Virus record (IMG/VR): IMGVR_UViG_3300032289_001330
Span: 1 to 38,724 of that record
Source of the DNA: a virus
Direction: 5' to 3' (one strand)
Length of the DNA stretch: 38,724 bases
Shown: one piece after another, positions 2,180-31,083 of the stretch
Layout: every line of letters starts with the position of its first letter
Numbering within the stretch: the stretch's first letter is position 1
Notes under the pieces: generated by a model
Databases searched by the model: none
Seen by the model: only the letters and a program-made list of their open reading frames with translations
What the model was told of the DNA's origin: nothing
Position numbers and translations under genes: made by a program

Positions 2180-3571
2180 TTAAGAAGGAGTCGCTAGTTC
2201 AAAAAACTTCTTTCGTAGATAATCTTTATCATCATGATCAAAGTCTTGTTTAGTTCTTTGTTGCTGTTTTGGTTGGCCATCTGACTCCTCATTATCCTCT
2301 ATATATTCGCCAGTAATGCGAGTTATACCAGTAGATCCTTCAAAATCACAATTGAAGGTAATACCATCTGTACCATAGCGGTTTTTAATAATATGCCAAC
2401 GAGAAGTATTATCTACTTTATCTTTGCGTAGACGAGATGTAGAGATAATAATATCACCAATCATGATTTTATCATACGAGCCAGCAGCTTTGTCACCCTC
2501 TACTACTTTATCAGCAGCACCTGAGCGATTTACTTGGGATGGTGATACAATTGGTATACCTAATTCCTTAGCTAATCCTTTAGCATCAGTATAGATATCA
2601 TCTAAATCATCTTTACGTTCATTTCTAGTACGTTGGCGATTTTTTAACAAATCCAAATAATCAATAAAGATAACATTGGGTTTAAAATTATGTTGGTTCC
2701 ACAATTGATCCAAATGACGCTCAATATCATCTAATGATGCACGTTTTGGTGGGTACTCTTTAATAATTAATTTACCTGCTAATCCTTTAGTTGCTTCTTC
2801 GATTTTAGTTCGATGAAATGATAGTTGATCAACTGGAATATCAAGTAGATTAGCATCAAAACGTTGTCCAACATATCCTTCACCTAATTCTAATGTGTAG
2901 TATACTACTTTACCACCTAATTTAACAGCTTCTAATGCCATCGAAATAGCAGCCCATGATTTACCAGAACCAGGTCCACCAAAGAATATAATTAAATCAC
3001 CTTTACCAATTCCACCTTGCGTAATGGAATTAATCTGTGGCCAAGGTGTAGGAATAACACGTCTGTCGTCTGGTCTATAACGTGCTTCAACATCTAATGC
3101 AAGATCATGTCCCGTATTTTTTTCTTGTGATGTAATGATTGCTTTAGAGATTAATGAACGAATCGATTCGTAATCGCCATCTTCAAGCAAACTAACAGAT
3201 GTCATAATTGCTTTCTTCATCTGTTGGTTTTGGCAGAATTTTAGGAATTCCTGCTCGATATATTCTTTATCGTGTGCGCTGTCTGCCATTTTATAGGCTT
3301 CCTTCAATTCCTCAATAACAGCAATCTTTAGTACCTCGTTGTCTTCTTTTTTTACTTCGATTTGAAGTGCCTCCATTGTGGGAGTAGTATGGAATTCGTC
3401 GAAGTATTTATTTAATTTAGTTACAATCCATTTTCTAGCTGTATTTTCAAAATAATCTTCTGTAACTGAATCCGATACATCTACTAGAAATTTCCTATCT
3501 GTTAGTAACAAACCTAATACTTTGGTTTGAAACGAATTACCGTATTTATCTAAACTTTCTAATGAAGTCAT
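2180..3571 (-). CDS. gp41: Replicative DNA helicase, DnaB/T4 gp41 type
   Basis: Hexameric 5'-3' helicase that unwinds DNA at the phage fork. The 463-aa protein has an N-terminal helical domain (about 1-150) and a RecA-like motor domain. Walker A is GGPGSGKS at 198-205, Walker B is VIFID at 300-304 followed by YLDLL, and later segments SPSQVNRSG and SRLRKDK match the DnaB H3 and H4 regions. Length matches T4 gp41 (about 475 aa). It follows the exonuclease gene by 42 bp and precedes thioredoxin. A primase is not seen in this window, so it must be encoded elsewhere or supplied by the host. The C-terminal 40 residues are acidic and Gln/Lys-rich, possibly a partner-binding tail. Recombinase alternatives are excluded by the DnaB-type C-terminal motifs. 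Confidence 0.93.
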   Translation of the reverse strand: MTSLESLDKYGNSFQTKVLGLLLTDRKFLVDVSDSVTEDYFENTARKWIVTKLNKYFDEFHTTPTMEALQIEVKKEDNEVLKIAVIEELKEAYKMADSAHDKEYIEQEFLKFCQNQQMKKAIMTSVSLLEDGDYESIRSLISKAIITSQEKNTGHDLALDVEARYRPDDRRVIPTPWPQINSITQGGIGKGDLIIFFGGPGSGKSWAAISMALEAVKLGGKVVYYTLELGEGYVGQRFDANLLDIPVDQLSFHRTKIEEATKGLAGKLIIKEYPPKRASLDDIERHLDQLWNQHNFKPNVIFIDYLDLLKNRQRTRNERKDDLDDIYTDAKGLAKELGIPIVSPSQVNRSGAADKVVEGDKAAGSYDKIMIGDIIISTSRLRKDKVDNTSRWHIIKNRYGTDGITFNCDFEGSTGITRITGEYIEDNEESDGQPKQQQRTKQDFDHDDKDYLRKKFFELATPS

Positions 3572-3598
3572 CTATAACCTTTATTTATGTAATATGAG

Positions 3599-3618
3599 TA
3601 TAATCTAGAAAGATTATA
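3599..3618. other. Perfect 8-bp inverted repeat at the exonuclease 3' end
   Basis: TATAATCT and AGATTATA flank a 4-base loop, and the exonuclease stop codon lies inside the right arm. The stem is AT-rich and is not followed by a T-run on the minus strand, so it may be an mRNA 3'-end or processing hairpin rather than a true intrinsic terminator. Confidence 0.35.
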
Positions 3619-4645
3619 ATTTCCAATCTAATGATGAGAAGTTTTCAATAAGCCAGGACTGCCAATCTATACGCTCATTTAATTGGTCATCCTCCGTCAT
3701 TTCAACGAAATTCCCTATATTCAGTGATGGGGGTGCATTATCAATTACATCATCAACGATGCGCTTATCCTCGTCGTCTATGTTCGGATCTTTTAACGAC
3801 ATTAATTGATAATTAATACCTAATTGACTTTCAAATTGAATTATTTTAGTATATAATTGATTTTTATCTTCATTCAACTTTGCTTTATTTATCATATAAT
3901 CTAAATCAATAGGAGTAGACTCCATTAATTCAGGATATAACTTAAATACTTTTTTAGGACCTAATCCTTGAATTCCAGGAACGTTATCGCCCGAATCCCC
4001 TAACAACATTTTGTAATTAATAAAGTTATTTGGATGTACAAAATATTCTTCTAATACATCATCAGCTCGGTATGTTTTCTTTTTAGTTGGCGAGTATATT
4101 TCTGTTTTATCTGATATTAATTGTAGAAAATCCTTATCAGCAGACATAATTGTTACTTTATCTGTTTTGGGGTCTGCTTCAAATTTTTTAACTAAATAAC
4201 CCATCACGTCATCTGCTTCAATTTTTGGAATACAAATCATCGATACTGGTAATTGGGTGCAATATTCAATTAATCGCCCCATTTGATTAGCCATTGATTC
4301 GCTTTCTTCCTTTTTATCGCCAAATACTTTCCAATTAGTTACTTTAATATTAGTACGGTTTGCTTTATAATCAGCATATAAGTACTTCTTATTAGTGGAA
4401 TTGCCCTGTCCATCAAACACTAAAATAACCCTATTCGGTTGGTATAGCTTAATAGCATAACCAACCGATTTAAGGAAGCCAACAAGACCACCTACATGGT
4501 GGCCGTTGGGATTTAAGTGTTGAATAATGGCAAATGAGCGTAGGAATGTATTCATTGAATCTACAATGAGTACTCTAGCATTTTTTGAATTATTTTTATC
4601 TGCGCTTAGTTCAGAAAATAACTTATTTAGAAAATCTTTATCCAT
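3614..4645 (-). CDS. 5'-3' exonuclease / flap endonuclease (FEN, T4 RNase H-like)
   Basis: Removes RNA primers and 5' flaps from lagging-strand DNA. The 343-aa protein shows the PIN/FEN catalytic acid pattern: D29 in VLIVDSMN, D78 in LVFDGQ, E143/D145/D146 in KIEADDV, D170 and D172 in SADKDF, and D217/D220 in LGDSGDNVPG. The last motif leads into the helix-3-turn-helix DNA-binding element GIQGLGPKKV (about 224-233). Length is close to T4 Rnh (305 aa) and T5 D15. It overlaps the start of the preceding 81-aa gene by 8 bp and is followed by the helicase gene. All catalytic carboxylates appear intact, so it should be active. Because the polymerase A relative here has no 5' nuclease domain, this stand-alone enzyme likely supplies that activity. 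Confidence 0.94.
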   Translation of the reverse strand: MDKDFLNKLFSELSADKNNSKNARVLIVDSMNTFLRSFAIIQHLNPNGHHVGGLVGFLKSVGYAIKLYQPNRVILVFDGQGNSTNKKYLYADYKANRTNIKVTNWKVFGDKKEESESMANQMGRLIEYCTQLPVSMICIPKIEADDVMGYLVKKFEADPKTDKVTIMSADKDFLQLISDKTEIYSPTKKKTYRADDVLEEYFVHPNNFINYKMLLGDSGDNVPGIQGLGPKKVFKLYPELMESTPIDLDYMINKAKLNEDKNQLYTKIIQFESQLGINYQLMSLKDPNIDDEDKRIVDDVIDNAPPSLNIGNFVEMTEDDQLNERIDWQSWLIENFSSLDWKL

Positions 4646-7358: not shown

Positions 7359-8651
7359 TTATTTTATTTCTGCGTAGTTGTGTCCAAATTTCGTAGAGTA
7401 ATTAAATTTTAGTAGTGAAGTTATGCTATCTAATAAATTCTCCGATGAATCGTAATCTAGTAATATAGAATCATATGTGTATAATATAATTTTAGTTTTT
7501 TTATCTTTAAGTAAATTTACTACAGCAGAAAATTGCACTACATTAAATACGGTTTCTGTATTTTGAACAATATAATTAAGCAATTTTTGTGGTGTTGGAT
7601 TTTCAATCATTTGTTTAGTAAATCGCTTACCGAATTGTGCACCAATTGCTTCTTCATTACTCCATAATTGATTCGTATAGTTATTTACTTGCTTAAAGAA
7701 CGGTTTATCTTGGAAATCCTTTCTAACACCTCCATATAACTGCTGAAATACTAGTTCCTTAATTGTTTCGGGTGTTGATCCTGAAAATTCATTAGCTAAT
7801 TGATCATATATGTTTCCTACAAATTCATATCCAGCTAATTTAGCTATAATTGTTGGATGGTATGCTTTAAAGTCAATCTCAACTAACGAATCGTTTTCTG
7901 GGATAAATGCAGCACGTTCTCCATTTGTTTTATTTAAAGCAGCAAAATTAATACCGTTAAATGCGTTTGATGGTCTGCCAGTTAATGTATTTAGATTGTA
8001 TTGTGTATATATTTTACCTTTAGATACTGAAAATTTAGGATTAGGTAATGTTTTAAAATGTTCAATGAATGGCTCCTTACTTAATTTAATGCCTTGTTTT
8101 TCAATATTATAGAATAACGGAGCAATATAATGATTTAAAAAATCATATTCACGTATATTTTCGCTTATTTTATTAATTGTTTGCTCAATATGATCATATA
8201 CGTTTTCATACTTTTCATAATGTTTTGCTATAGGAATTAATGTTGATGGTGATTCTGTGTAGTATTTACATTTAAAATCAGTTTCAACTTTTGATTCGTA
8301 TTGTTCTACATTAATATCTTGTAATGTATGATATGAGCTAATTAGTTGCACATCAATTAGTTGGGGACTCAACGTAGGGAAGTGGTGTAACACCGCTTTC
8401 TTATCTAATGTGTATAAGTTATCGACTTTAGATAGTTTAGCGAGTATATCGGTGATTGATAACGATAGTGATTCTGAATGATTAATACATAAAATGTATC
8501 CTTTATGTCCTTTTATCCATCGAACATAAATTAGACTAATGTTTTGTAAAGCAGGGTGGTAATTTTCATTCGTTGGGATAATATGAATGAATGTGTCTTT
8601 ACCAATATGTAACTGATCTAGTTGATCTTGTTTTTCAATAATATAAAACAT
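7359..8651 (-). CDS. Divergent, compact family-A DNA polymerase
   Basis: The 430-aa protein aligns by eye along the DNA polymerase I core. TGRPS (224-228) matches the TGRLSS motif; motif A is VEID260FKAYHP; motif B has K298, F302 and Y306 in the exact K-x3-F-x3-YG spacing; N359 and Q363 match the N-x3-Q of the NAPMQGTAAD helix; motif C is YTYD394S; and the end GHNYAEIK resembles Pol I's terminal NWDQAH. Both catalytic aspartates are kept, but Pol I R754 (Pro here), E710 (His here) and H881/E883 (Tyr/Ser here) are replaced. Only about 25 residues separate the pre-thumb helix (IEKQGIKL) from the GRIHT-like KGKIYTQYN, so the thumb seems absent. Residues 1-150 resemble a 3'-5' exonuclease domain lacking the DxE motif. 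Length compares with 704 aa for T7 polymerase. A replicative role is unproven. Confidence 0.85.
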   Translation of the reverse strand: MFYIIEKQDQLDQLHIGKDTFIHIIPTNENYHPALQNISLIYVRWIKGHKGYILCINHSESLSLSITDILAKLSKVDNLYTLDKKAVLHHFPTLSPQLIDVQLISSYHTLQDINVEQYESKVETDFKCKYYTESPSTLIPIAKHYEKYENVYDHIEQTINKISENIREYDFLNHYIAPLFYNIEKQGIKLSKEPFIEHFKTLPNPKFSVSKGKIYTQYNLNTLTGRPSNAFNGINFAALNKTNGERAAFIPENDSLVEIDFKAYHPTIIAKLAGYEFVGNIYDQLANEFSGSTPETIKELVFQQLYGGVRKDFQDKPFFKQVNNYTNQLWSNEEAIGAQFGKRFTKQMIENPTPQKLLNYIVQNTETVFNVVQFSAVVNLLKDKKTKIILYTYDSILLDYDSSENLLDSITSLLKFNYSTKFGHNYAEIK

Positions 8652-8666
8652 AGTATAACCTTTTAA

Positions 8667-9206
8667 TTAATTTCCTCCAATATCTCCTAATGGCGGTAAA
8701 GACAAATTATCTAAAAATGCTTTTATACCGGGCATTTGTTGTTCGAACTGATTATAATCTAATAAAGAAGCATTAGGTCCCCAAAGTATATTTAAAGTGT
8801 AGTAAAATTTAGTAGCTCTAGCATTAGTATATGTTTGTTTATCTACTTCAAGTATTGGAGAGTTTGTTTCGTTTGTTCGTTTAATAAAAAATCGATACAA
8901 TGTATTCGGTGATGGTGTATAATTAACTCGAACAATCGGAAATTCATCTTTTTTAATAATATTAATTATATTTGGATTGATACGCATATAGACAGGATCA
9001 ATTTTTGATAGATTATATGCTGCTACTTCTCGATTTTGAGTATAAGGCACTAATTCAATTGAATTTGGTTTGTACGTAGCACCAATATATTTTTTTCCTG
9101 AAACTGAATGGTAGTATCCTACATAATTATCATAAGTTCTAACCAGTAAATATTCATTACCTTTAGTATATAAATTCTCTAGTATTTGATTTTTTGGAGG
9201 TCTCAT
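8667..9206 (-). CDS. Hypothetical protein following the hub gene
   Basis: A 179-aa protein of unknown function. It opens with MRPPKNQILENLYTKGNEY and contains a tyrosine-rich, beta-strand-like first half (VGYYHSVSGKKYIGATY) and an ending SLPPLGDIGGN. No cysteines, signal peptide or membrane segment is visible. It follows the hub/peptidase gene by 13 bp and precedes the polymerase gene by 15 bp, so it ends the tail module. A virion or baseplate component is the most natural guess from position. No enzymatic motif is evident. Confidence 0.7.
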   Translation of the reverse strand: MRPPKNQILENLYTKGNEYLLVRTYDNYVGYYHSVSGKKYIGATYKPNSIELVPYTQNREVAAYNLSKIDPVYMRINPNIINIIKKDEFPIVRVNYTPSPNTLYRFFIKRTNETNSPILEVDKQTYTNARATKFYYTLNILWGPNASLLDYNQFEQQMPGIKAFLDNLSLPPLGDIGGN

Positions 9207-15063: not shown

Positions 15064-17589
15064 TTAAGCAGATTTATATGAGTTTTGCATTAATCCAGAT
15101 CCTACTGATTTAGAATCAAGTTTCACATCCCACGATTTATTATTTAATGTTGTTACAGCGGCTGTTACTTGATTAATAGCAGATATCATTGGGGATATAT
15201 CCATAGCTGGTGATGATCTTACTGAATTGATTGTATCTCCACCTCCTAAATTAGTACCTGCTATTACTGTATCTTTATCATTTAATCTAATTGCTCCTTC
15301 AGGTGATAATAAGGTACGTTTGCCATACCCTGGTTGTATCATATCGTCTGCTGTAGATGATAAAAATGCATATCCAGCAGCACCTGCAGCTAAAGCAATA
15401 CCTGCGGCTATGCCAAAACTAGTAGCAGATGCTCCTGTTATTTGAGCTACAGCAATGCCGATTGCTTTAGCTAATTCTCCAGACATTATAGCTTGTCGTG
15501 CTAATAATATACCATTATATCCTAAAGCAGCACTACGTTGTGCTATAGCATACCCAGTTTTAACAGCTTCATAAGCCGCTGATATTTTTTGATAGCCTAT
15601 TAATGCTAACTGAATGCTCTTTATTGTAAGCCAAATTCCAGCAATTACTTGTAGAGGACCAGCTAAAAATGAAAACGCATTACCTATTTTATTTACTACT
15701 CCTAAAACACCACTTAATATATCTAACATAGATCCTAATGGACCCGCAATTAAATTCCCAATTATGCTTTGAAGTTTTTCCATAGCAGCATTGAATTTAG
15801 TTTGCACATCTTGTCGTGTAGCGGCTTCGTCAGCTTCTTCAGCAGTAATTTGAGCTAACGACTTACCTGAGGCAATAGCCATTTCACGTTTAGCTAGTTG
15901 ATTTGCTAGTTCATCTGATGTTGTACCTAATGCTTCTGCAAATGATTTTTGGGCAATTACATTCATGCCGCTAAATTTAGCAGCAGTCATACCTTGTGCA
16001 GCTAATTCTTCAGCAACTGTTACTTGATCACCCATCAAAGCAGCTGCTCTGGCACGTTCAAGATTTAATTGTTGTCCTGTAATTAATTCGGCTTTTAATT
16101 CGTTTTCAATCGATGATTGAAAATCAAGTAATTTTTCTCCTTGATTTTTAGCTTGTTCTAGTGATGTACCTAATGCTTTAGTAGCAACTACTGCTTTAAT
16201 AATAATTTCAGGATTATTACCTAAATTAGATGCTAATTGGCCTGAAACTTTAGCAGCTTCAGCAATAGCAGCTTTGAACGGAACTCCAACTCCTAATGAA
16301 TTGCGAGTAGCAACATATCCTTTTAATAGTGATTGATATGTTTGTTCTGATGATTTTCCAGTTAATACGGAAAATTTATATACACCTGCAGCCTCATCAC
16401 CTGTTAATCCTAACTGTTTAGTTAATTTAATTTGAGTTGTTAATGCATCTGCTGAATATTCTGTAACGAATCCAGTAGATGATGATAACTCGTTAAATGC
16501 TTCAGATAAATTAGCTGTAGTTACATTTAAATTGTTAGCTGATCTTTCAATACCAACAAAATTAGCTCTAACACGATTAGCGTTTGCAGCACCATATCCT
16601 AAATTTTTAGATAAATTTACTGATTCTTTATTTGCTGTCATAGCAGCATTTATAAAGAAAGTAAATACAGCTTCAGGTGATTTTATATTTTCATAAAATC
16701 CTTTAGCTAATGTACTTAATCCTCTACCGGCAATTTTAAGTCTATTTCCAAAACTGGTAGCATCTTCTCCTCTTTCTGCTATGCTAGCTGCTAATTTTTC
16801 CATTTCATCAATGGCTTCATCAGCATTAAGGTATTGTCCTATACCTGGGATTTTAGATAAGGATTTAGACATAGCACCTAATAATCCTGTAGATTTTTCA
16901 ATCTGTTTTCGAATTATTAAATTTTTACGTAAAAATGCTAATTCATCATCTTGATCTTTTTGTGCTTTTATACCATCAGCCAGTAAAGCAGCAGATGTTT
17001 TAGCTATACTATCTTGTTCTTGTTGTTGAGTATTAAGATTTTTTAATAATTTATCTGAAACTCTTACTTCTTCTTGAGCATTTTTAAGATTTATTCTAGC
17101 TGTAGCTAATGTTCTAAGAGATACAGTTTCTCCTTTTTCTCTTCTTTTTATAAGATCTTGAAAACGATTTTTAGCTAAATCTACTAAATTATTTTGTTTT
17201 TGATATTCTCTATTTTCCTTCTCAATTTTTTCGATTAATTGAGTATTAGCTTTTACTGCAGCTTGATATTGTTTAGTAATATCTCCTTGGATATTTTTAA
17301 AAGCATCTTGAGATTTTCTTCTATTATTATCAGTAGCTTCAATTTGTTTTGCTAAATCTTTAGATTTAATTTGATAACCTATGTATTTATCAGCATTAGC
17401 TGTAATTTGTTGGGATAATTTTTGTTGTTGGCTTATAGTGTTCCTATATAGTGTTTCTTCTTCATTAAGTCCTTTTAATGTTTTAGCACGTTCATTATAT
17501 GAATTAAGTATACTATTACTTAAATTAAGTAATTCTTCACTATTTTGTATAGCTTTTATATTTTCTTCTTTTTCTTTACCGTCAGCCAT
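15064..17589 (-). CDS. Tail tape measure protein
   Basis: The 841-aa protein sets tail length and probably helps DNA ejection. Residues 1-230 are long heptad-like helices rich in Gln, Lys and Glu (for example KQLSQQITANADKY), consistent with coiled coil. The middle is Ala/Leu/Ser-rich helix, and residues about 610-740 hold several hydrophobic segments (LDILSGVLGVVNKIGNAFSF, FGIAAGIALAAGAAGYAFL) typical of tape measures. The C-terminus is a small globular region with GLMQNSYKSA. It directly follows the gp26/gp51-like chaperone region, the conserved place for a tape measure, and its start lies 27 bp past a terminator hairpin. Position, length, coiled coil and hydrophobic segments agree; T4 gp29 is the functional counterpart. 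Confidence 0.88.
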   Translation of the reverse strand: MADGKEKEENIKAIQNSEELLNLSNSILNSYNERAKTLKGLNEEETLYRNTISQQQKLSQQITANADKYIGYQIKSKDLAKQIEATDNNRRKSQDAFKNIQGDITKQYQAAVKANTQLIEKIEKENREYQKQNNLVDLAKNRFQDLIKRREKGETVSLRTLATARINLKNAQEEVRVSDKLLKNLNTQQQEQDSIAKTSAALLADGIKAQKDQDDELAFLRKNLIIRKQIEKSTGLLGAMSKSLSKIPGIGQYLNADEAIDEMEKLAASIAERGEDATSFGNRLKIAGRGLSTLAKGFYENIKSPEAVFTFFINAAMTANKESVNLSKNLGYGAANANRVRANFVGIERSANNLNVTTANLSEAFNELSSSTGFVTEYSADALTTQIKLTKQLGLTGDEAAGVYKFSVLTGKSSEQTYQSLLKGYVATRNSLGVGVPFKAAIAEAAKVSGQLASNLGNNPEIIIKAVVATKALGTSLEQAKNQGEKLLDFQSSIENELKAELITGQQLNLERARAAALMGDQVTVAEELAAQGMTAAKFSGMNVIAQKSFAEALGTTSDELANQLAKREMAIASGKSLAQITAEEADEAATRQDVQTKFNAAMEKLQSIIGNLIAGPLGSMLDILSGVLGVVNKIGNAFSFLAGPLQVIAGIWLTIKSIQLALIGYQKISAAYEAVKTGYAIAQRSAALGYNGILLARQAIMSGELAKAIGIAVAQITGASATSFGIAAGIALAAGAAGYAFLSSTADDMIQPGYGKRTLLSPEGAIRLNDKDTVIAGTNLGGGDTINSVRSSPAMDISPMISAINQVTAAVTTLNNKSWDVKLDSKSVGSGLMQNSYKSA

Positions 17590-17616: not shown

Positions 17617-17640
17617 AAAAGCACCTATTTTTTAGGTGCC
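17616..17640 (-). terminator. Intrinsic terminator after gp51-like gene
   Basis: A perfect 7-bp stem, GCACCTA (17621-17627) with TAGGTGC (17633-17639) around a 5-base loop, is followed on the minus strand by five T residues. The gp51-like TAG stop is inside the stem. It separates gp26/gp51 from the tape measure transcript. Confidence 0.75.
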
Positions 17641-17906
17641 TTATATGAGTATGTAGGATTTGAATTCTTAGGAGCTATGTTGGGACGAGCAATTTCTTTT
17701 GGATTAGATTTATTTGTTAATTGTTGTTGTTGTTTTTCAACTTCCTCTTTTTCCTTATCGTAATGTTCTTTTAATTTATTAAATGTAAATCTACGAAGCC
17801 ATATAGGCATATCGTAAACTGTTTGCCAATCGTATCCTCCATTACCATGAAATATTATTTCATGTATTTGTGAGAATAGATGAACTCTATACTCCAGCGT
17901 CAGGCC
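17625..17906 (-). CDS. gp51: gp51-like hub assembly protein, probably made by frameshift from gp26
   Basis: An open frame without a usable start codon before the internal ATG at 17810. Upstream of that ATG it continues in frame through HLFSQIHEIIFHGNGG and YDWQTVYD before MPIWLRRFTFNKLKEHY, then a charged Lys/Glu/Gln helix. The conserved-looking part begins well before the ATG, so initiation at 17810 would cut the domain. The frame is open back to 17915 and overlaps the end of gp26 in the +1 (equivalently -2) frame. A run of seven T (17907-17913) in the overlap is the likely slip site; a +1 slip would give about 93 residues here and a fusion of about 341 aa. Genes 26 and 51 are also neighbours in T4. 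Role: hub or tail assembly chaperone, by position. Confidence 0.72.
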   Translation of the reverse strand, partial: GLTLEYRVHLFSQIHEIIFHGNGGYDWQTVYDMPIWLRRFTFNKLKEHYDKEKEEVEKQQQQLTNKSNPKEIARPNIAPKNSNPTYSYKAPKK

Positions 17907-18651
17907 AAAAAAAGTTTAGTCCAATTGGCACCATTACACCCTCCTGTGTGTATCCATCTTTATCAATGGTTATCTTCATGTCAACATCGGGCATTACTTG
18001 GTTATAATACTCGCGTAATGAGCGTGAATCTTGTGCGGTAAGATATTTGTCGACAAACTCGCGTATGTCTTTAATATCGCGTTGATTCTCAACTGATGTT
18101 ATCATAAACTTTAAACGAGTAGTTAATTCAAACGAATCATTTGGGTATAATTTCTTTAATCCTTTTAATTCTTGCTCGATTTTCTTCTCATCATTACCAT
18201 CTAATAATTTAAAAGTAATTGTGTTTTTTGATTGAGGTAATTCATAGGTAAATTCATTTTTGCCTGATGTAAGTAATGACTCATCAATTTCTTTTTCTTT
18301 TAAATCGGTTAAATCAACTGTATAATTTTCTTGTTGTTTTGTACTTTCATTATAGAACTGGATAGGATAATCTTTACCATATCCTAAAATACGAGCAGCA
18401 ATTAGAATTGCATTCTTATCACCAATAAGTAAATCATTAAAATTAATTGGTGTGACGATTAGTGCTTCAAGCAACTTATCAATTGCTGTTCCATTTTTAA
18501 TATAGTTAATATTAGTTAGAATATCTTCATGCTTTGCAGTCATGTATGACATTTCAATCTCTCCAGAAGATAATGGATTTTCTTTCGGGTATAATAAACC
18601 TTTTGAAGGTAGGGTTATTGTTTCAGTTGGTAATTTAAATTTTGATTCCAT
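17887..18651 (-). CDS. gp26: Baseplate hub assembly protein gp26-like / tail assembly chaperone
   Basis: The 254-aa protein fits the T4 gp26 family: an N-terminal LPSKGLLYPKENPLSSGEIEM, then YMTAKHEDILTN, an ALIVTPINFNDLLIGDKNAI segment and a charged helical C-terminal half. In T4, gp26 is needed for hub assembly and gene 26 is followed by 51. Here it lies between the tube gene and the tape measure, the place where long-tailed phages keep the G/GT tail chaperones. The last codons read NFFWPDAGV, with a TTTTTTT run seven codons before the stop where the gp51-like frame overlaps. Its own upstream region has an ATAAATATATA element 22 bp before the start, after the tube terminator. Family assignment is good; the chaperone role is inference. 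Confidence 0.85.
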   Translation of the reverse strand: MESKFKLPTETITLPSKGLLYPKENPLSSGEIEMSYMTAKHEDILTNINYIKNGTAIDKLLEALIVTPINFNDLLIGDKNAILIAARILGYGKDYPIQFYNESTKQQENYTVDLTDLKEKEIDESLLTSGKNEFTYELPQSKNTITFKLLDGNDEKKIEQELKGLKKLYPNDSFELTTRLKFMITSVENQRDIKDIREFVDKYLTAQDSRSLREYYNQVMPDVDMKITIDKDGYTQEGVMVPIGLNFFWPDAGV

Positions 18652-18744: not shown

Positions 18745-19233
18745 TTAGTAATTCAATACGCAATAATCCATATTAATTGTCATAGTGATATTTGCAGCAG
18801 ATTCTCCAGATGACCAATCATAATCTCCAAAGTTAGCTTCTTGAACATAAGCACCTTTAACAATCCACTCAGAAACAACATCACCAACTGGTCCTAATAT
18901 ATTCATTACGATATCTTTTTTATAGAAATCTGAATATCCATCACGTCCTGTTACTGATTCGTGAGCTAAACGAGCCCATTCCATTACTGCTTGCGCACCA
19001 GATGGAGCAATTGGATCGTAAAGTTCTAAAGCCATTGTATTCCATTTTACCTTACCTTTTATTTTACGGTAAGTATTAATGTGATCCAATGTGATTTCAC
19101 CAGCCGTAAATGAAGGTGAGGAAGCTTTTTTAATTAGGTAAGCTGGGATACCGTCTATATACATTATGAATCTGTTTTGAACCTTTGGTTCAAAAGCTGT
19201 AAACATAATCTCAGAAGCGTCAAGAACTGCCAT
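18745..19233 (-). CDS. gp19: Tail tube protein, gp19-like
   Basis: Major tail tube subunit, 162 aa, matching T4 gp19 in length (163 aa). Features of the tube fold include the N-terminal KVQNRFIMYIDGIPAYLIKK, the ITLDHINTYRKIKGKVKWN strand pair, LELYDPIAPSGAQAVMEW, and a C-terminal GDYDWSSGESAANITMTI followed by the terminal YCVLNY. It should polymerise around the tape measure inside the sheath. It is separated from the sheath gene by an inserted HNH gene, and is followed by a strong terminator, giving its own short transcript as expected for a highly expressed protein. An AATAAATATATAA element lies 24 bp upstream of the start. Confidence 0.95.
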   Translation of the reverse strand: MAVLDASEIMFTAFEPKVQNRFIMYIDGIPAYLIKKASSPSFTAGEITLDHINTYRKIKGKVKWNTMALELYDPIAPSGAQAVMEWARLAHESVTGRDGYSDFYKKDIVMNILGPVGDVVSEWIVKGAYVQEANFGDYDWSSGESAANITMTINMDYCVLNY

Positions 19234-22145: not shown

Positions 22146-22360
22146 TTTTGTTTAGGACATGATTTTTCTACTGGTGAGTATACTTTACCTTTTAATGGGC
22201 AACCACATTCACCACAATAGAATATGTCGGTTATTTCATTATGCTTTTTAAATTCACATGTATTACATACTGCAATACGTTGATCTGCTATTTTTTGTTT
22301 TTCTTCTGGTGGATTTAAAGCTGTAATCCACGACTGTGCTATTTCTAAGAACTTATTCAT
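22133..22360 (-). CDS. Small zinc-ribbon protein
   Basis: A 75-aa protein with a cysteine pattern C32-x2-C35, C49-x2-C52-x-C54 and C68, consistent with a rubredoxin-like zinc ribbon (VCNTCEFKK and FYCGECGCPLKGK). The N-terminal 25 residues form a helix with a WITAL segment. Similar small phage ribbons are found beside tail and glycan genes, with unknown roles. It overlaps the methyltransferase stop by 8 bp and the coiled-coil start by 13 bp, so it belongs to that operon. Metal binding is likely; function is unknown. Confidence 0.78.
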   Translation of the reverse strand: MNKFLEIAQSWITALNPPEEKQKIADQRIAVCNTCEFKKHNEITDIFYCGECGCPLKGKVYSPVEKSCPKQKWPV

Positions 22361-23573
22361 TATAAATATATTTTGAAGCGTTTTTTATCTTATCATTTAT
22401 TGATCTCATAAGTTGCATTCCTCTTCCCGCAGCTAATTGGGGGTATATCCACCAATCTTCATACGGTGAATAATCATCAGGAGAAATATCATTTACCATT
22501 AATTCATATCCAAATGATTTTAAATACTTACGTGATTTTTCTCTTATTGATTGAGTATCATCAGCATAATGATCATGTTCAAAAGTTATAACAGCAAATT
22601 TATGAGTGTGAAATGGTATTTTAGTTAATACATCATACGATACTGTTGGTGGATCACAATCAATTTGTAGATAATCCCAATTTAATGTATCACCTAATAA
22701 TTCACTATAATTTATCTTAGTAGCATCACTTTGTATTACTTTATTTTTTCTTTCTAATGCAAATTTATCAACCATACTTTGATCAATATCAATTGATATG
22801 CCTGTCCACTCAAATTCTTTTTCTAATAATGCTGTATTATTGCCATAAAATGGATCAGCGCATCCTATTTCTAAATATTTACCATTTTTCTTACCATTCA
22901 ACATACTTAAGACAAATATATCCTGATAGCATTGTGAGTAATTTTGTTCAATATTACTGGCTCCCTCAAATTTAAATCGTAGATTTGAAAATTGATGTTT
23001 TCTATATATTGATGGATCTTTCCAGTTATTACCTATTAATTGTAGATTGCTTTCTATTGATGCTTTGTAATGATGTGGTATATTATATTCTTTTTTTAAT
23101 TCTCTAAATAAATGAGCAGATTCGTCATGTAATCCCATCCACCACCCTACTACTGCTTTCTCAAATTTAAATCCCCATCGACCTGGGTATTCAACATCAA
23201 TTAAGATTTGTGATTCGTCTGTTGTTAATTGTTCGCCTATAGTAGCTATAGTGTAACTTTCTTGCCAATCTTTATTTCGTTCATATAAACGAGAAAGTAA
23301 AAAATATGCTTCGGGAAGAAGAGGAGAATGTGATATAGCATGCAGATATAACCCTTTAACTGAGGATATACGGTTGTTTTGTTTTTCTAAACATAATCCA
23401 ATTCTAAGTAATGATGGATAAATTAAATTACTATCTAATTCTGTTACTCTTAAATAATAAGCTAAAGCAGATGCTGTTTGGTTTTGATCATAATATAAAT
23501 TAGCTAAATCAAATGTAGTTTTATCATTATATGGGTCATTTATAAATTTACTTAATGCTTGTTGTATGCTCAT
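22353..23573 (-). CDS. TPR-repeat protein fused to FkbM-type SAM methyltransferase
   Basis: The 406-aa protein joins two parts. Residues 1-180 are helical repeats of TPR type (DLANLYYDQNQTASALAYYL, then AYFLLSRLYERNKDWQESY). Residues about 210-390 are a Rossmann methyltransferase: the QCYQDIFVL opening and YLEIGCADP at 233-241 (SAM-binding loop, E-x-G), SIDID at 260-264 and LQIDCDPP resemble the FkbM family, which methylates sugars or related groups. It overlaps the GH130-like gene by 4 bp, so the two are coupled. A role in modifying glycans, either on the virion or on host surface, follows from this pairing and is inference. The central WWMGLHDESAHLFRELK segment probably continues the helical repeats. 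Confidence 0.82.
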   Translation of the reverse strand: MSIQQALSKFINDPYNDKTTFDLANLYYDQNQTASALAYYLRVTELDSNLIYPSLLRIGLCLEKQNNRISSVKGLYLHAISHSPLLPEAYFLLSRLYERNKDWQESYTIATIGEQLTTDESQILIDVEYPGRWGFKFEKAVVGWWMGLHDESAHLFRELKKEYNIPHHYKASIESNLQLIGNNWKDPSIYRKHQFSNLRFKFEGASNIEQNYSQCYQDIFVLSMLNGKKNGKYLEIGCADPFYGNNTALLEKEFEWTGISIDIDQSMVDKFALERKNKVIQSDATKINYSELLGDTLNWDYLQIDCDPPTVSYDVLTKIPFHTHKFAVITFEHDHYADDTQSIREKSRKYLKSFGYELMVNDISPDDYSPYEDWWIYPQLAAGRGMQLMRSINDKIKNASKYIYNE

Positions 23574-27385: not shown

Positions 27386-28912
27386 TTAACAGAAAGCAAA
27401 TGAATTAGTCATTGTAGAAGAATACATAATTTGAGCACATACACTTCCACCATCGTAAACAAAATAACCATTCTGAGTAGTACCACCACAATCAACAAAA
27501 TCAATATATATATCATACCCATTATAGTTATACCATGTATAACATGTTGGAGCAGGAGTTGGAGTTGGAGTTGGAGTTGAAGTTGGAGTTGGGGTTGGTG
27601 TTGGAGTTGGTGGATTACATGAAGCATCACTACATCCTCCTGAAATGATTGAATATGAATCTAAATCAACATCATAACTAGGACCCGATGTGATTCCGTT
27701 AGATTGGAAACAAATTCCCCCTATTAAAAATACAGCAGTTCCATATGATGAAGATGTACTTCTACCTACAGATATTGAAGTTGATTGACCCCAACATGTA
27801 CTTAATGCATAATAATAATAAGTAGGAGTTGGTGTAGGTGTAGGAGTTCGTGTTGGAGTAGGTGTTGGGGTTGCTGTTGGAGCAACATAACAATTTACAA
27901 CTATATTTGGACCACTTACAGCACATTCTGGTTTTCCAGAGTCGGCTATTTGAGCATTATATGTTCCATCATCAATACCTGTAAATGTAAATATATTAGT
28001 TCCTATACCAAAGGCTCCTGAAGTCCATCCTGTTGTAGTACCTCCAGAAATTGCTAATAAACGTACTTGATAACTATTACATGAAAGTGATTGGAAAGCA
28101 ACATTAACACGTCCATTTAATCCTGAATTGTCATCACATGATATAGTTGGGTTAACGCCAATTCCAAATCCTGACTGACATGGACAAGGATTTGCTGTAG
28201 GTGTAGGTGTAGGTGTTGGAGTTCGTGTTGGAGTAGGTGTAACTGTTGGTGTAGGTGTAGGAGCTGGGCATGTATTTTTAGCTGAGATCCCTCCACCTGC
28301 TTGTACTGTATATCTAAATGATCCATCAGTATAAAATCCTGAAGTTAATGGGTCTCCTAAATTTTGAGAAGCATATAATGTATTACCAACTTCTAAACTT
28401 CCACCAGAGTTATATTTATATGCTGTTATGTTAGTACCATATTCACATACTGTATCAGGTGTTACGTATAAATTATATCCTGTCCAGAATATAGTTGGTG
28501 TAGGTGTAGGAGTTCGTGTTGGTGTTGGTGTTGGAGTGGGTGTAGGGCAAAATCCAATTAAATTAACAATACCCGCAGGATTTACATAGTAATAGATAGA
28601 ACCTCCAGTTCCAGTACCATACCAACCTGCTGCTGCTAATGTAGTTCTTCCACTATCGGTCCAAACATAATCGCCTACATCTAAAGTAGAACAATCTACC
28701 CAATATAGATTAGATGCCGTACCTGTACCCCCACATAATGAAGCTGCAGATGTATTATTATATTTTATACTAAGTAATGAAAATACAGCAGAAGGAAAAA
28801 TTAAAGCTTCACCTAAAAACATGCGCAAAACCTGACTAGAAGCAAATTTAACAGTATTACATGCACTAATAAGTGTTGTACCTAAATATGTTTTTGCTGC
28901 TGTAAGTGCCAT
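27386..28912 (-). CDS. Cys-rich modular surface protein with Pro-Thr linkers
   Basis: The 508-aa protein has small cysteine-bearing modules joined by four (PT)n linkers, each about 15-25 residues and often broken by a single Arg or Ser (PTPTRTPTPT). At least two modules share a pattern: C, aromatic strand, G-x-x-L-x-V-G, then GWY or GFY, then YYYV or YTV, and a closing C. The last two modules diverge. The N-terminal 60 residues are not a signal peptide and may attach to the virion. It lies between the S74 fibre and the collagen-like fibre, with 2-bp and 37-bp gaps, so a displayed adhesin is likely. Extended PT linkers are known from secreted bacterial glycan-binding proteins; use in a phage adhesin is inferred. 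Sugar or protein binding cannot be chosen from the sequence. Confidence 0.75.
   Translation of the reverse strand: MALTAAKTYLGTTLISACNTVKFASSQVLRMFLGEALIFPSAVFSLLSIKYNNTSAASLCGGTGTASNLYWVDCSTLDVGDYVWTDSGRTTLAAAGWYGTGTGGSIYYYVNPAGIVNLIGFCPTPTPTPTPTRTPTPTPTIFWTGYNLYVTPDTVCEYGTNITAYKYNSGGSLEVGNTLYASQNLGDPLTSGFYTDGSFRYTVQAGGGISAKNTCPAPTPTPTVTPTPTRTPTPTPTPTANPCPCQSGFGIGVNPTISCDDNSGLNGRVNVAFQSLSCNSYQVRLLAISGGTTTGWTSGAFGIGTNIFTFTGIDDGTYNAQIADSGKPECAVSGPNIVVNCYVAPTATPTPTPTRTPTPTPTPTYYYYALSTCWGQSTSISVGRSTSSSYGTAVFLIGGICFQSNGITSGPSYDVDLDSYSIISGGCSDASCNPPTPTPTPTPTSTPTPTPTPAPTCYTWYNYNGYDIYIDFVDCGGTTQNGYFVYDGGSVCAQIMYSSTMTNSFAFC
28200..28262 (-). repeat. Pro-Thr codon minisatellite (one of four blocks)
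   Basis: Hexamer-like repeats (GGTGTA/GGTGTT/GGAGTT on the top strand) encode a PT linker. Similar blocks lie near 27548-27610, 27820-27880 and 28497-28550. They could change length by slippage or recombination. Confidence 0.7.
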
Positions 28913-28914
28913 TA

Positions 28915-31083
28915 TTAGATTATGATATATAATGTGTTAGGATCTTTAGTACCTATAGCATCGTATTGAGCTTGAGACAATGTTACCACATACATTGCTT
29001 TAGCCGTACCTGTATAAGTATCAGGAGTATTTGTAATAAAATCTGCTGTAGATGGAGATATTCCTTGAATACCTTGTACACCTTGAATTGATGCACCTGT
29101 TGCTCCTTGAGAACCATTAGTACCATTAGTACCTGATGCCCCTTGAGAACCATTAGTACCATTAGTACCTGATGTTCCTTGAGTTCCAGTAGTACCTTGG
29201 ACACCTCTAACACCAGTTAAAGCAATAGTCCAAGATGAAGCAGGTGTTGTCCCTACATTAAAATCAGCAGCAATAGTAAATGTAGTACCACCAGTAATAG
29301 TAACAATACCTTCAAAATAATTTGAAGTTGTATTAATTGCTCTAACTCTATTACCTGTAACAAAGGCTCCTTGTTGATTCGTAGTTAATGCTATATTACC
29401 TGATGATGCTGGTGTTGCTGATGTTGTTGATGTTACATTACCGTATCCTGTTCCTATTGTACCTTGTGTACCTTGTGTTCCCACAGCACCTTGAGTACCA
29501 GTTGCGCCTTGAGTACCAGTGGTACCTTGTGTACCTTGTGTACCTTGCGTACCTTGTGTACCTTGTATTCCTGTAGTACCTTGAACACCTTGTGTGCCTC
29601 GAGCTCCCTGAACACCAACTCCAAATGTTACCATTGCATATCCACTTTCTGGGGATGAGAATGTAACAGTCATTACATTTCCTGATGTTGCAGTTATGTT
29701 AAATGGTATTATAACATTACCTGTAGTATCAAATACTTGTATTACTGGGTATTGTTGTCCTAGATTATGAGTTATAGTCCAAGTAGCAGCAGCTGATGCT
29801 TGGGTAAATAAAAATGAGTTTCCAGTTGTAGCACCTGTTGTACCTTGTATACCAGCACCTGTTGCACCTTGAATCCCAGTAATACCTTGAGTACCTTGGG
29901 CTCCAGTAGTACCTTGTGTACCCGTAGTACCTTGTGTGCCGTTTGTACCTTGAGTTCCAGTAGTACCCTGTGTACCTGTTATACCTTGAGTTCCAGTTGT
30001 GCCTTGTGTACCTTGGGCCCCAGTTGTACCTTGAATTCCAGTGATACCTTGAGTACCTGTTGCTCCTTGAATTCCAGTTGTGCCTTGAGTACCTGTTATA
30101 CCTTGTGTACCTTGGGCTCCAGTAGTACCTTGTGTACCAGTAGTGCCTTGAGCTCCAGTTGTACCTTGTGTGCCAGTAGTACCTTGTGTACCAGTAGTAC
30201 CTTGAGTTCCGGTGGTACCTTGTAAACTTAAATTTGATCTATATTTTAATGTACCATCAGCATTTAGTACTACTATGTTTGTTTCAGAAGTACCTATGGG
30301 TATTGGAGCAACTACTGATGATGTTAAAGCATAGGATGCTGAGGTAGCTGTTCTTGCATTACCAAATAATGATCCAGTTATACCTAATGTTACATTTAAT
30401 GAACCGGTAACAATAGCATTTCCATTTACATCTAAAGTAGCATTAGATGAACTTTTAGCAATACCAATTCTGTTACTTACATATAAATTACCTGCACCAT
30501 ATGGAGATGCTTGTGGTACATATCCAACTAATAATGATTTATCAGCAAATGCATAATCACCCCATCCATTAAATACTAATGTGCCTACAAATGTATTATC
30601 TGATCTTGAAGATGATAATACTGTAGTAAGGTCACTACCCACTATCTGAAAACCACTACGAGCTCTAATTATACCATTTACATCTAATAATGCTTGTGGA
30701 GGTCCAGTAGTTATTGGAGTAGTTGTTCCAATACCAATATAAGTACCACTTGATGAAATAAATAATCTACCAGTACCGTTAGTTTCTAATGTTAAATTAT
30801 TTGTGTCATTAGTTCCTATTACAGCAGCAGCACCAAATGAATTTCCACCTTGAATAAAAGCATTAGCAGCATTTGTTGCAAATGACGCAGTAGTAGCAAA
30901 CGATGATGTTACAGCAAATGATGAAGTAACAGCAAAAGAAGCAGTGAATGCATGCGTAGCAGATCCAGTTATAGATCCGGTAAATGATTGTGCTATTACG
31001 GATTGTGATACTGCTAATGATCCACTAATTGTAGAGTTAGCTAATCCTATTATACCATTTCTGGCTATAAATTCAAAAGGCAT
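28915..31083 (-). CDS. Collagen-like tail fibre
   Basis: A 722-aa fibre. Residues 1-285 are T/S/A-rich shaft with SFAVTSSFAVTSSFATTASF repeats and an internal NGIIRARSGFQIVG region. Three Gly-x-y blocks follow: about 287-416, 489-543 and 625-674, made mostly of GTQ and GTT triplets with few or no Pro, separated by globular domains. The C-terminus SQAQYDAIGTKDPNTLYIII is a motif seen at fibre ends. Collagen triple helices in phage fibres form trimeric rods; Thr in the y position can stabilise bacterial triple helices without hydroxyproline. The gene lies 2 bp before the Pro-Thr protein gene. Trimeric adhesin is a sound assignment; receptor unknown. Confidence 0.88.
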   Translation of the reverse strand: MPFEFIARNGIIGLANSTISGSLAVSQSVIAQSFTGSITGSATHAFTASFAVTSSFAVTSSFATTASFATNAANAFIQGGNSFGAAAVIGTNDTNNLTLETNGTGRLFISSSGTYIGIGTTTPITTGPPQALLDVNGIIRARSGFQIVGSDLTTVLSSSRSDNTFVGTLVFNGWGDYAFADKSLLVGYVPQASPYGAGNLYVSNRIGIAKSSSNATLDVNGNAIVTGSLNVTLGITGSLFGNARTATSASYALTSSVVAPIPIGTSETNIVVLNADGTLKYRSNLSLQGTTGTQGTTGTQGTTGTQGTTGAQGTTGTQGTTGAQGTQGITGTQGTTGIQGATGTQGITGIQGTTGAQGTQGTTGTQGITGTQGTTGTQGTNGTQGTTGTQGTTGAQGTQGITGIQGATGAGIQGTTGATTGNSFLFTQASAAATWTITHNLGQQYPVIQVFDTTGNVIIPFNITATSGNVMTVTFSSPESGYAMVTFGVGVQGARGTQGVQGTTGIQGTQGTQGTQGTQGTTGTQGATGTQGAVGTQGTQGTIGTGYGNVTSTTSATPASSGNIALTTNQQGAFVTGNRVRAINTTSNYFEGIVTITGGTTFTIAADFNVGTTPASSWTIALTGVRGVQGTTGTQGTSGTNGTNGSQGASGTNGTNGSQGATGASIQGVQGIQGISPSTADFITNTPDTYTGTAKAMYVVTLSQAQYDAIGTKDPNTLYIII
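29835..30222 (-). repeat. Collagen-coding tandem repeat
   Basis: A tandem of degenerate 9- to 18-base units coding GTQGTTG-type triplets. Smaller blocks lie near 29455-29618 and 29060-29208. Repetition causes several spurious open frames on both strands. Confidence 0.85.

Follow-up and report, generated by a model that had tools for sequence, protein, structure and literature searches.

A conserved out-of-frame extension behind a gp26-like tail gene and its probable expression by +1 frameshifting

Gene order and reading frames at the locus

The window, i.e. the whole stretch of DNA analysed, is the 38,724-base virus record IMGVR_UViG_3300032289_001330, and the locus described here lies on its minus strand. 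The order on that strand is a tail sheath gene (21798-20038), an endonuclease-like ORF (19947-19288), a tail tube gene (18745..19233), a gp26-like gene (17887..18651), an unannotated +1 reading frame (17915-17625), and a tape measure gene (15064..17589). The tube protein is gp19-like and was assigned through PHROG 4542 (tail tube, 4.6e-26). The 841-aa ORF downstream of the extension owes its name to the tail tape measure protein of Flavobacterium phage immuto, with which it shares 27% identity over 560 columns (E 4e-36). Lying between the tube and tape measure genes, the gp26-like gene occupies the slot held by G/GT in lambda, and among relatives a long ORF starts no more than 300 nt past the extension stop in 102 of the 103 loci with enough sequence.

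The endonuclease-like ORF was judged from its Cys/His pattern and may be a homing endonuclease; a Pfam search with it gave no match. The sheath and tube genes of immuto are adjacent, with no such ORF between them. Elsewhere on the minus strand, tandem DNA repeats were seen in a gene for collagen-like TQGTTG repeats and a phage tail tip domain (28915-31083) and in the gene for a PTPT-repeat protein beside it (27386-28912), and a TPR domain fused to a methyltransferase-type-looking C-terminal half is encoded at 22353-23573 amid tail fibre genes.

The gp26-like ORF encodes 254 aa and terminates at TAG (17887..17889). Shortly before this stop it contains seven consecutive T (17913-17907), read in the 0 frame as AAC TTT TTT TGG CCT GAC GCT GGA GTA TAG. 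In the putative slip site TTT TTT TGG (17905..17913), T1 is base 17913, the P-site codon is 17910-17908, and the A-site TGG is 17907-17905. The +1 frame is open from 17915 to 17625 (96 codons and a stop) and is preceded immediately 5' of the T run by an in-frame TAA (17918-17916), so that the junction must fall between AAC and GTA. The -1 frame at the site stops at once (GCC TGA), and the extension lies in +1, not in the -1 frame of an X XXY YYZ shift. The extension (17625..17912), readable only after a frameshift, would add 95 aa, and the length computed for the fused product is 341 aa. A first-pass annotation, made from the sequence alone, had proposed a frameshift at this run; its coordinates for the run, for the +1 frame (open to 17915, with no start before ATG 17810) and its early stop in the -1 frame proved exact.

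Protein family and relation to T4 gp26 and gp51

The gp26-like ORF matched the Pfam family T4_baseplate (PF12322) with 32.9 bits, against a cut-off of 24.5, and PHROG 150 (baseplate hub) at 8e-15; 38 of 48 relatives matched PF12322 at E values up to 0.01. The gp26-like protein and the extension were folded separately. The AlphaFold2 model of the former had a pLDDT of 92 and was aligned by Foldseek with the SP-15 baseplate hub subunit (TM 0.80), consistent with a T4-like baseplate hub fold; nothing significant was found among PDB folds, where the HK97 chaperone 2ob9 ranked fourth with a probability of 0.33. The extension was modelled as helical (pLDDT 74, pTM 0.49) with weak fold matches. Single-sequence searches of the extension against Pfam and PHROG gave nothing significant, and a scan of all 48 members gave nothing consistent.

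T4 gp26 and gp51 both match PF12322 (8.8e-64 and 3.9e-52), which identifies gp51 as a gp26 paralogue. The last 48 residues of T4 gp51 lie outside the Pfam match and carry the extension in frame: a profile of the cyanophage extension matched the gp51 tail of T4 (E 4e-7) and of RB43 (E 2e-8) and did not match gp26. In profile comparison the extension of the window clade matched the cyanophage extension (84%, E 7e-6); its direct HMM comparison with T4 gp51 was not significant. The earlier label 'gp51-like' may hold by way of the intermediate cyanophage family only, not by a significant direct match. T4 genes 26 and 51, cited in the same annotation as neighbours, are indeed adjacent but divergently transcribed. 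In RB43 (2501-3794) the two genes are in tandem and overlap, and this difference from T4 fits the duplication of one gene.

Conservation of the slip site and the extension

Relatives were sought in viral contigs with the gp26 protein alone, which yielded 57 loci in a first scan and 80 more in a profile scan; because only gp26 was used in the search, the set is not biased by the slip site. A total of 125 distinct gp26 genes were counted. The first-pass annotation had suggested inspecting related genomes for a T run with a constant frame offset, and both were found: TTT YTT T is present in the 0 frame near the end of gp26 in 125/125, followed by the same +1 frame, while synonymous shuffles gave TTTYTT in 74 +/- 5. 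The variants were TTTTTTTGG (112 loci), TTTCTTTGG (6), TTTTTTTTC (3), TTTCTTTAC (2), TTTTTTTAT (1), and TTTTTTTAC (1); the site of immuto is TTTCTTTGG. The first Phe is encoded by TTT throughout, and within the seven T, change is limited to a C in place of T4 (TTT CTT T, 8 loci), T5-T7 being invariant. The first Phe and the Pro codons of the site are identical in all 42 close relatives compared, and in 106 of the 125 loci AAC or AGC directly precedes the run. The A-site codons differ (TGG, TTC, TAC, TAT), always with T as first base. In every relative the gp26 stop starts between 15 and 36 nt downstream of T1, and in 85/125 the distance is 24 nt.

The +1 frame is open in all complete loci. In 21 loci the nearest upstream stop in this frame abuts the slip codon; in most it is 20 nt or less away. 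With a stop placed immediately 5' of the run, as in the window and these 21 loci, the frame can change only within the run and a few codons after it. From the gp26 stop to ATG 17810, dN/dS was 0.17, the same value as after the ATG, and the two other frames of the pre-ATG region contain stops in most or all loci. Judged by these substitution patterns, the extension is under purifying selection from its first codons, and the stretch ahead of the ATG changes as a protein-coding sequence does, in line with the first-pass annotation, to which it looked like real domain sequence. As in G/GT, the first frame is overlapped at its 3' end by a second, which lacks a start of its own, and a conserved slippery site is present. 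A conserved start, a loss of conservation ahead of the ATG and a sequencing error were looked for as points against the frameshift, and none was found.

Another group of relatives, of cyanophage type, has the extension in the -1 frame behind T TTT TTC (72 of 73 distinct loci) or T TTT TTT (one locus). Of these 73 loci, 51 have GGAGG upstream of the heptamer at a spacing of exactly 10 nt, where 6.6 +/- 2.5 were expected, and about 10 nt is the classical stimulatory Shine-Dalgarno spacing for -1 frameshifting. The 57-aa 'gp51' of S-PM2 (2501-3393) lies in the -1 frame behind gp26, at T TTT TTC. Det7 and Vibrio D504 have gp26 relatives with a -1 extension ORF and no canonical slip site (GAG ATT TTC, CTT TTC). 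In a gp26 tree, +1 and -1 loci were strongly clustered, and gp26 and gp51 of T4 and RB43 formed one supported group (96/87) among the -1 lineages, as expected if two genes replaced a frameshifted gene there. The +1 labels require two changes on this tree, the deep branches of which are long, so that the number of direction switches is not firm. A conserved frameshift would have changed direction within one protein family with its product kept.

Proposed frameshifting and its alternatives

The gene probably gives rise to two tail assembly chaperones, a pair of the G/GT type, in which a +1 slip of the P-site tRNA would give a 341-aa long form beside the 254-aa short form; this reading of the sequence is assigned a probability of about 0.86. 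The overlap, conserved site, coding extension, gene position and family are evident in the sequence; the slippage itself, its rate and +1 direction, and a role as chaperones are what we infer. Most ribosomes would terminate at TAG 17889 and produce the gp26-like short form (TAC-N, 'G'). In a minority, tRNA-Phe (tRNA-Leu in the CTT variants) would stand in the P site on YUU, with U as the first base of the next codon, and would move one base forward to UUU, after which the +1 frame would be read. The long form would consist of the short-form sequence and the helical domain (TAC-C, 'T'-like). If lambda G/GT and T4-like TACs are a guide, the tape measure may be coated by many copies of the short form while the rarer long form recruits the tube protein.

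Re-pairing of this kind is permitted in all 125 loci by a P-site YUU followed by U, as in prfB. The T4 to C change keeps +1 re-pairing to UUU and matches the prfB slip from CUU to UUU, which favours +1. Counting against it is an A site with no in-frame stop or obvious slow codon, unlike that of prfB. No conserved RNA structure was found around the slip site by RNAalifold, with mean z between 0 and -0.9.

The downstream frame would be the same after a -2 shift, which is known for phage Mu and would move the P-site tRNA back two bases with the addition of one Phe; it is feasible on seven T, and the first-pass annotation had treated +1 and -2 as equivalent. They are equivalent in frame, but +1 fits better. 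With AAC or AGC before the run in most loci, a tandem -2 slip would put tRNA-Phe on ACU. If a single tRNA slipped by -2 on TTT CTT T, tRNA-Leu would have to pair with UUC, and one more codon would need decoding. Tolerance of a C at T4 is predicted by +1 slippage; a -2 shift is accordingly considered unlikely. Even less credence is given to a separate gene starting at ATG 17810 or a non-AUG codon. Such starts are used in GenBank for short ORFs in immuto, DSL-LC02, phiAS5 and SP-15, and in many marine contigs of cyanophage type an ATG follows closely on the gp26 stop, but an in-frame ATG before +90 occurs in only 22 of 121 +1-clade loci, at differing positions, so no start is conserved. The first ATG of the window (17808..17810, MPIWLRRF) was judged not to be a start, because the residues ahead of it are equally conserved and it is missing in some relatives, which have NLP or FP here.

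RNA polymerase slippage on the T run, giving mixed mRNAs for both products, might be invoked for the seven consecutive T of most loci, but the 8 TTTCTTT loci have no run longer than three and show the same frame relation, which makes it very improbable. A homopolymer in a metagenomic contig also raises the thought of an assembly error or a broken gene; the chance of this is negligible, since the same arrangement recurs in more than 120 distinct contigs and in the isolate genomes of immuto and Mel-JY01, excluding a sequencing error or dead gene. Fusion of gp26 to a gp51-like C-terminal domain by ribosomal frameshifting, as originally proposed, is thus the reading best supported by the comparative data.

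Upstream of the run the window has a Shine-Dalgarno-like AGGAGG (17940..17945), 26 nt 5' of the first T. Of the 125 loci, 109 have its GGAGG core no more than 45 nt upstream of the run, 86 of them at exactly 26 nt, where synonymous shuffles lead one to expect 6.1 +/- 2.1; counted by clusters, it is present in 33/43 against 2.7 +/- 1.3 in shuffles. It is nearly absent elsewhere in the gp26-like gene. GGAGG occurs in two codon registers and encodes differing residues (EEG, EED, GEG, EGG, DGG), which indicates that selection acts on the RNA. Bacteroidota ribosomes ignore Shine-Dalgarno sites, in agreement with the scarcity of such sites at gene starts of the window, where AGGAG or GGAG lies within 20 nt upstream of 1 of 32 listed starts; a strongly selected GGAGG in such a phage is of interest. 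Stimulatory Shine-Dalgarno distances are about 3 nt for +1 and about 10 nt for -1, and we know of no model that covers a GGAGG 26 nt from the slip site. Internal initiation from AGGAGG was considered and would lack a conserved start at suitable spacing in any frame. Pairing of GGAGG with the T run in a hairpin was seen in some sequences only and is not conserved. A tentative and rather doubtful suggestion is that GGAGG is a working part of the frameshift signal that recruits the tail of 16S rRNA from beyond the distances known so far, perhaps only in ribosomes with a freed anti-Shine-Dalgarno (e.g. without bS21); the type of ribosome would then set the chaperone ratio in hosts to which Shine-Dalgarno sites otherwise make no difference.

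The proposed slip resembles that of prfB (RF2), including AGGAGGUAUCUUUGAC of Flavobacterium johnsoniae, in its P-site YUU to UUU +1 shift and an upstream AGGAGG (PMC8710568). It differs in that the A site holds TGG, TTC or TAY in place of a stop, AGGAGG lies (mostly, in the clade) 26 nt from the run as opposed to 3 nt from the P codon, so that the stop and Shine-Dalgarno spacing of prfB are both lacking, and the product is structural, not autoregulatory. TTT YTT T would constitute a natural set of +1 slip sites without an A-site stop codon. With lambda G/GT the locus shares the slot between tube and tape measure, an overlap near the end of ORF1 and a long product expected to be the rarer one (PMC5009743), whereas lambda shifts -1 at another site and the gp26-like protein of the window has no significant match among PDB folds. 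G-T frameshifting was described in a 2016 review as widely conserved except in T4, with halovirus HSTV-2 as a likely +1 case (PMC5009743). T4-like tail assembly chaperones were identified by Vladimirov, Gautam and Davidson in 2022, as cited in PMC10885494 and PMC12846349; going by these accounts, in some T4-like phages the short form has a gene of its own and the fused long form another (PMC10885494, citing Vladimirov 2022), and T4-like TAC genes carry poly-T -1 signals (PMC12846349). To the extent covered there, the window clade is like T4-like TACs in PF12322, in its short and long forms, and in having, like the non-T4 groups, a poly-T slip site where the short gene ends. It differs from cyanophages, phiAS5 and Cr30, where the shift is -1, on T TTT TTC or a T run, in its presumed +1 shift at TTT YTT T, and from T4 and RB43, which have two genes instead of a frameshift. 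The link drawn in the first-pass annotation between T4 hub chaperones and the G/GT system is supported but, on the same accounts, was already published for T4-like phages in 2022; the large +1 clade and the distant conserved GGAGG appear to be new.

Seven contigs from MAGs have the same arrangement; the labels are Flavobacteriales or below for four, Woesearchaeota for one, and bacteria for two. These MAG hosts and one isolate point to Bacteroidota as hosts of the +1 clade, and the host of the present phage is probably a member of the Bacteroidota. The annotation of isolate genomes would need correction where gp26 and a short 'hypothetical' ORF are shown in place of an encoded fused chaperone. 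In immuto (8001-8964), SP-15, phiAS5 and Atu_ph07, GenBank gives a short hypothetical ORF from an internal ATG, and the out-of-frame extension begins further upstream.
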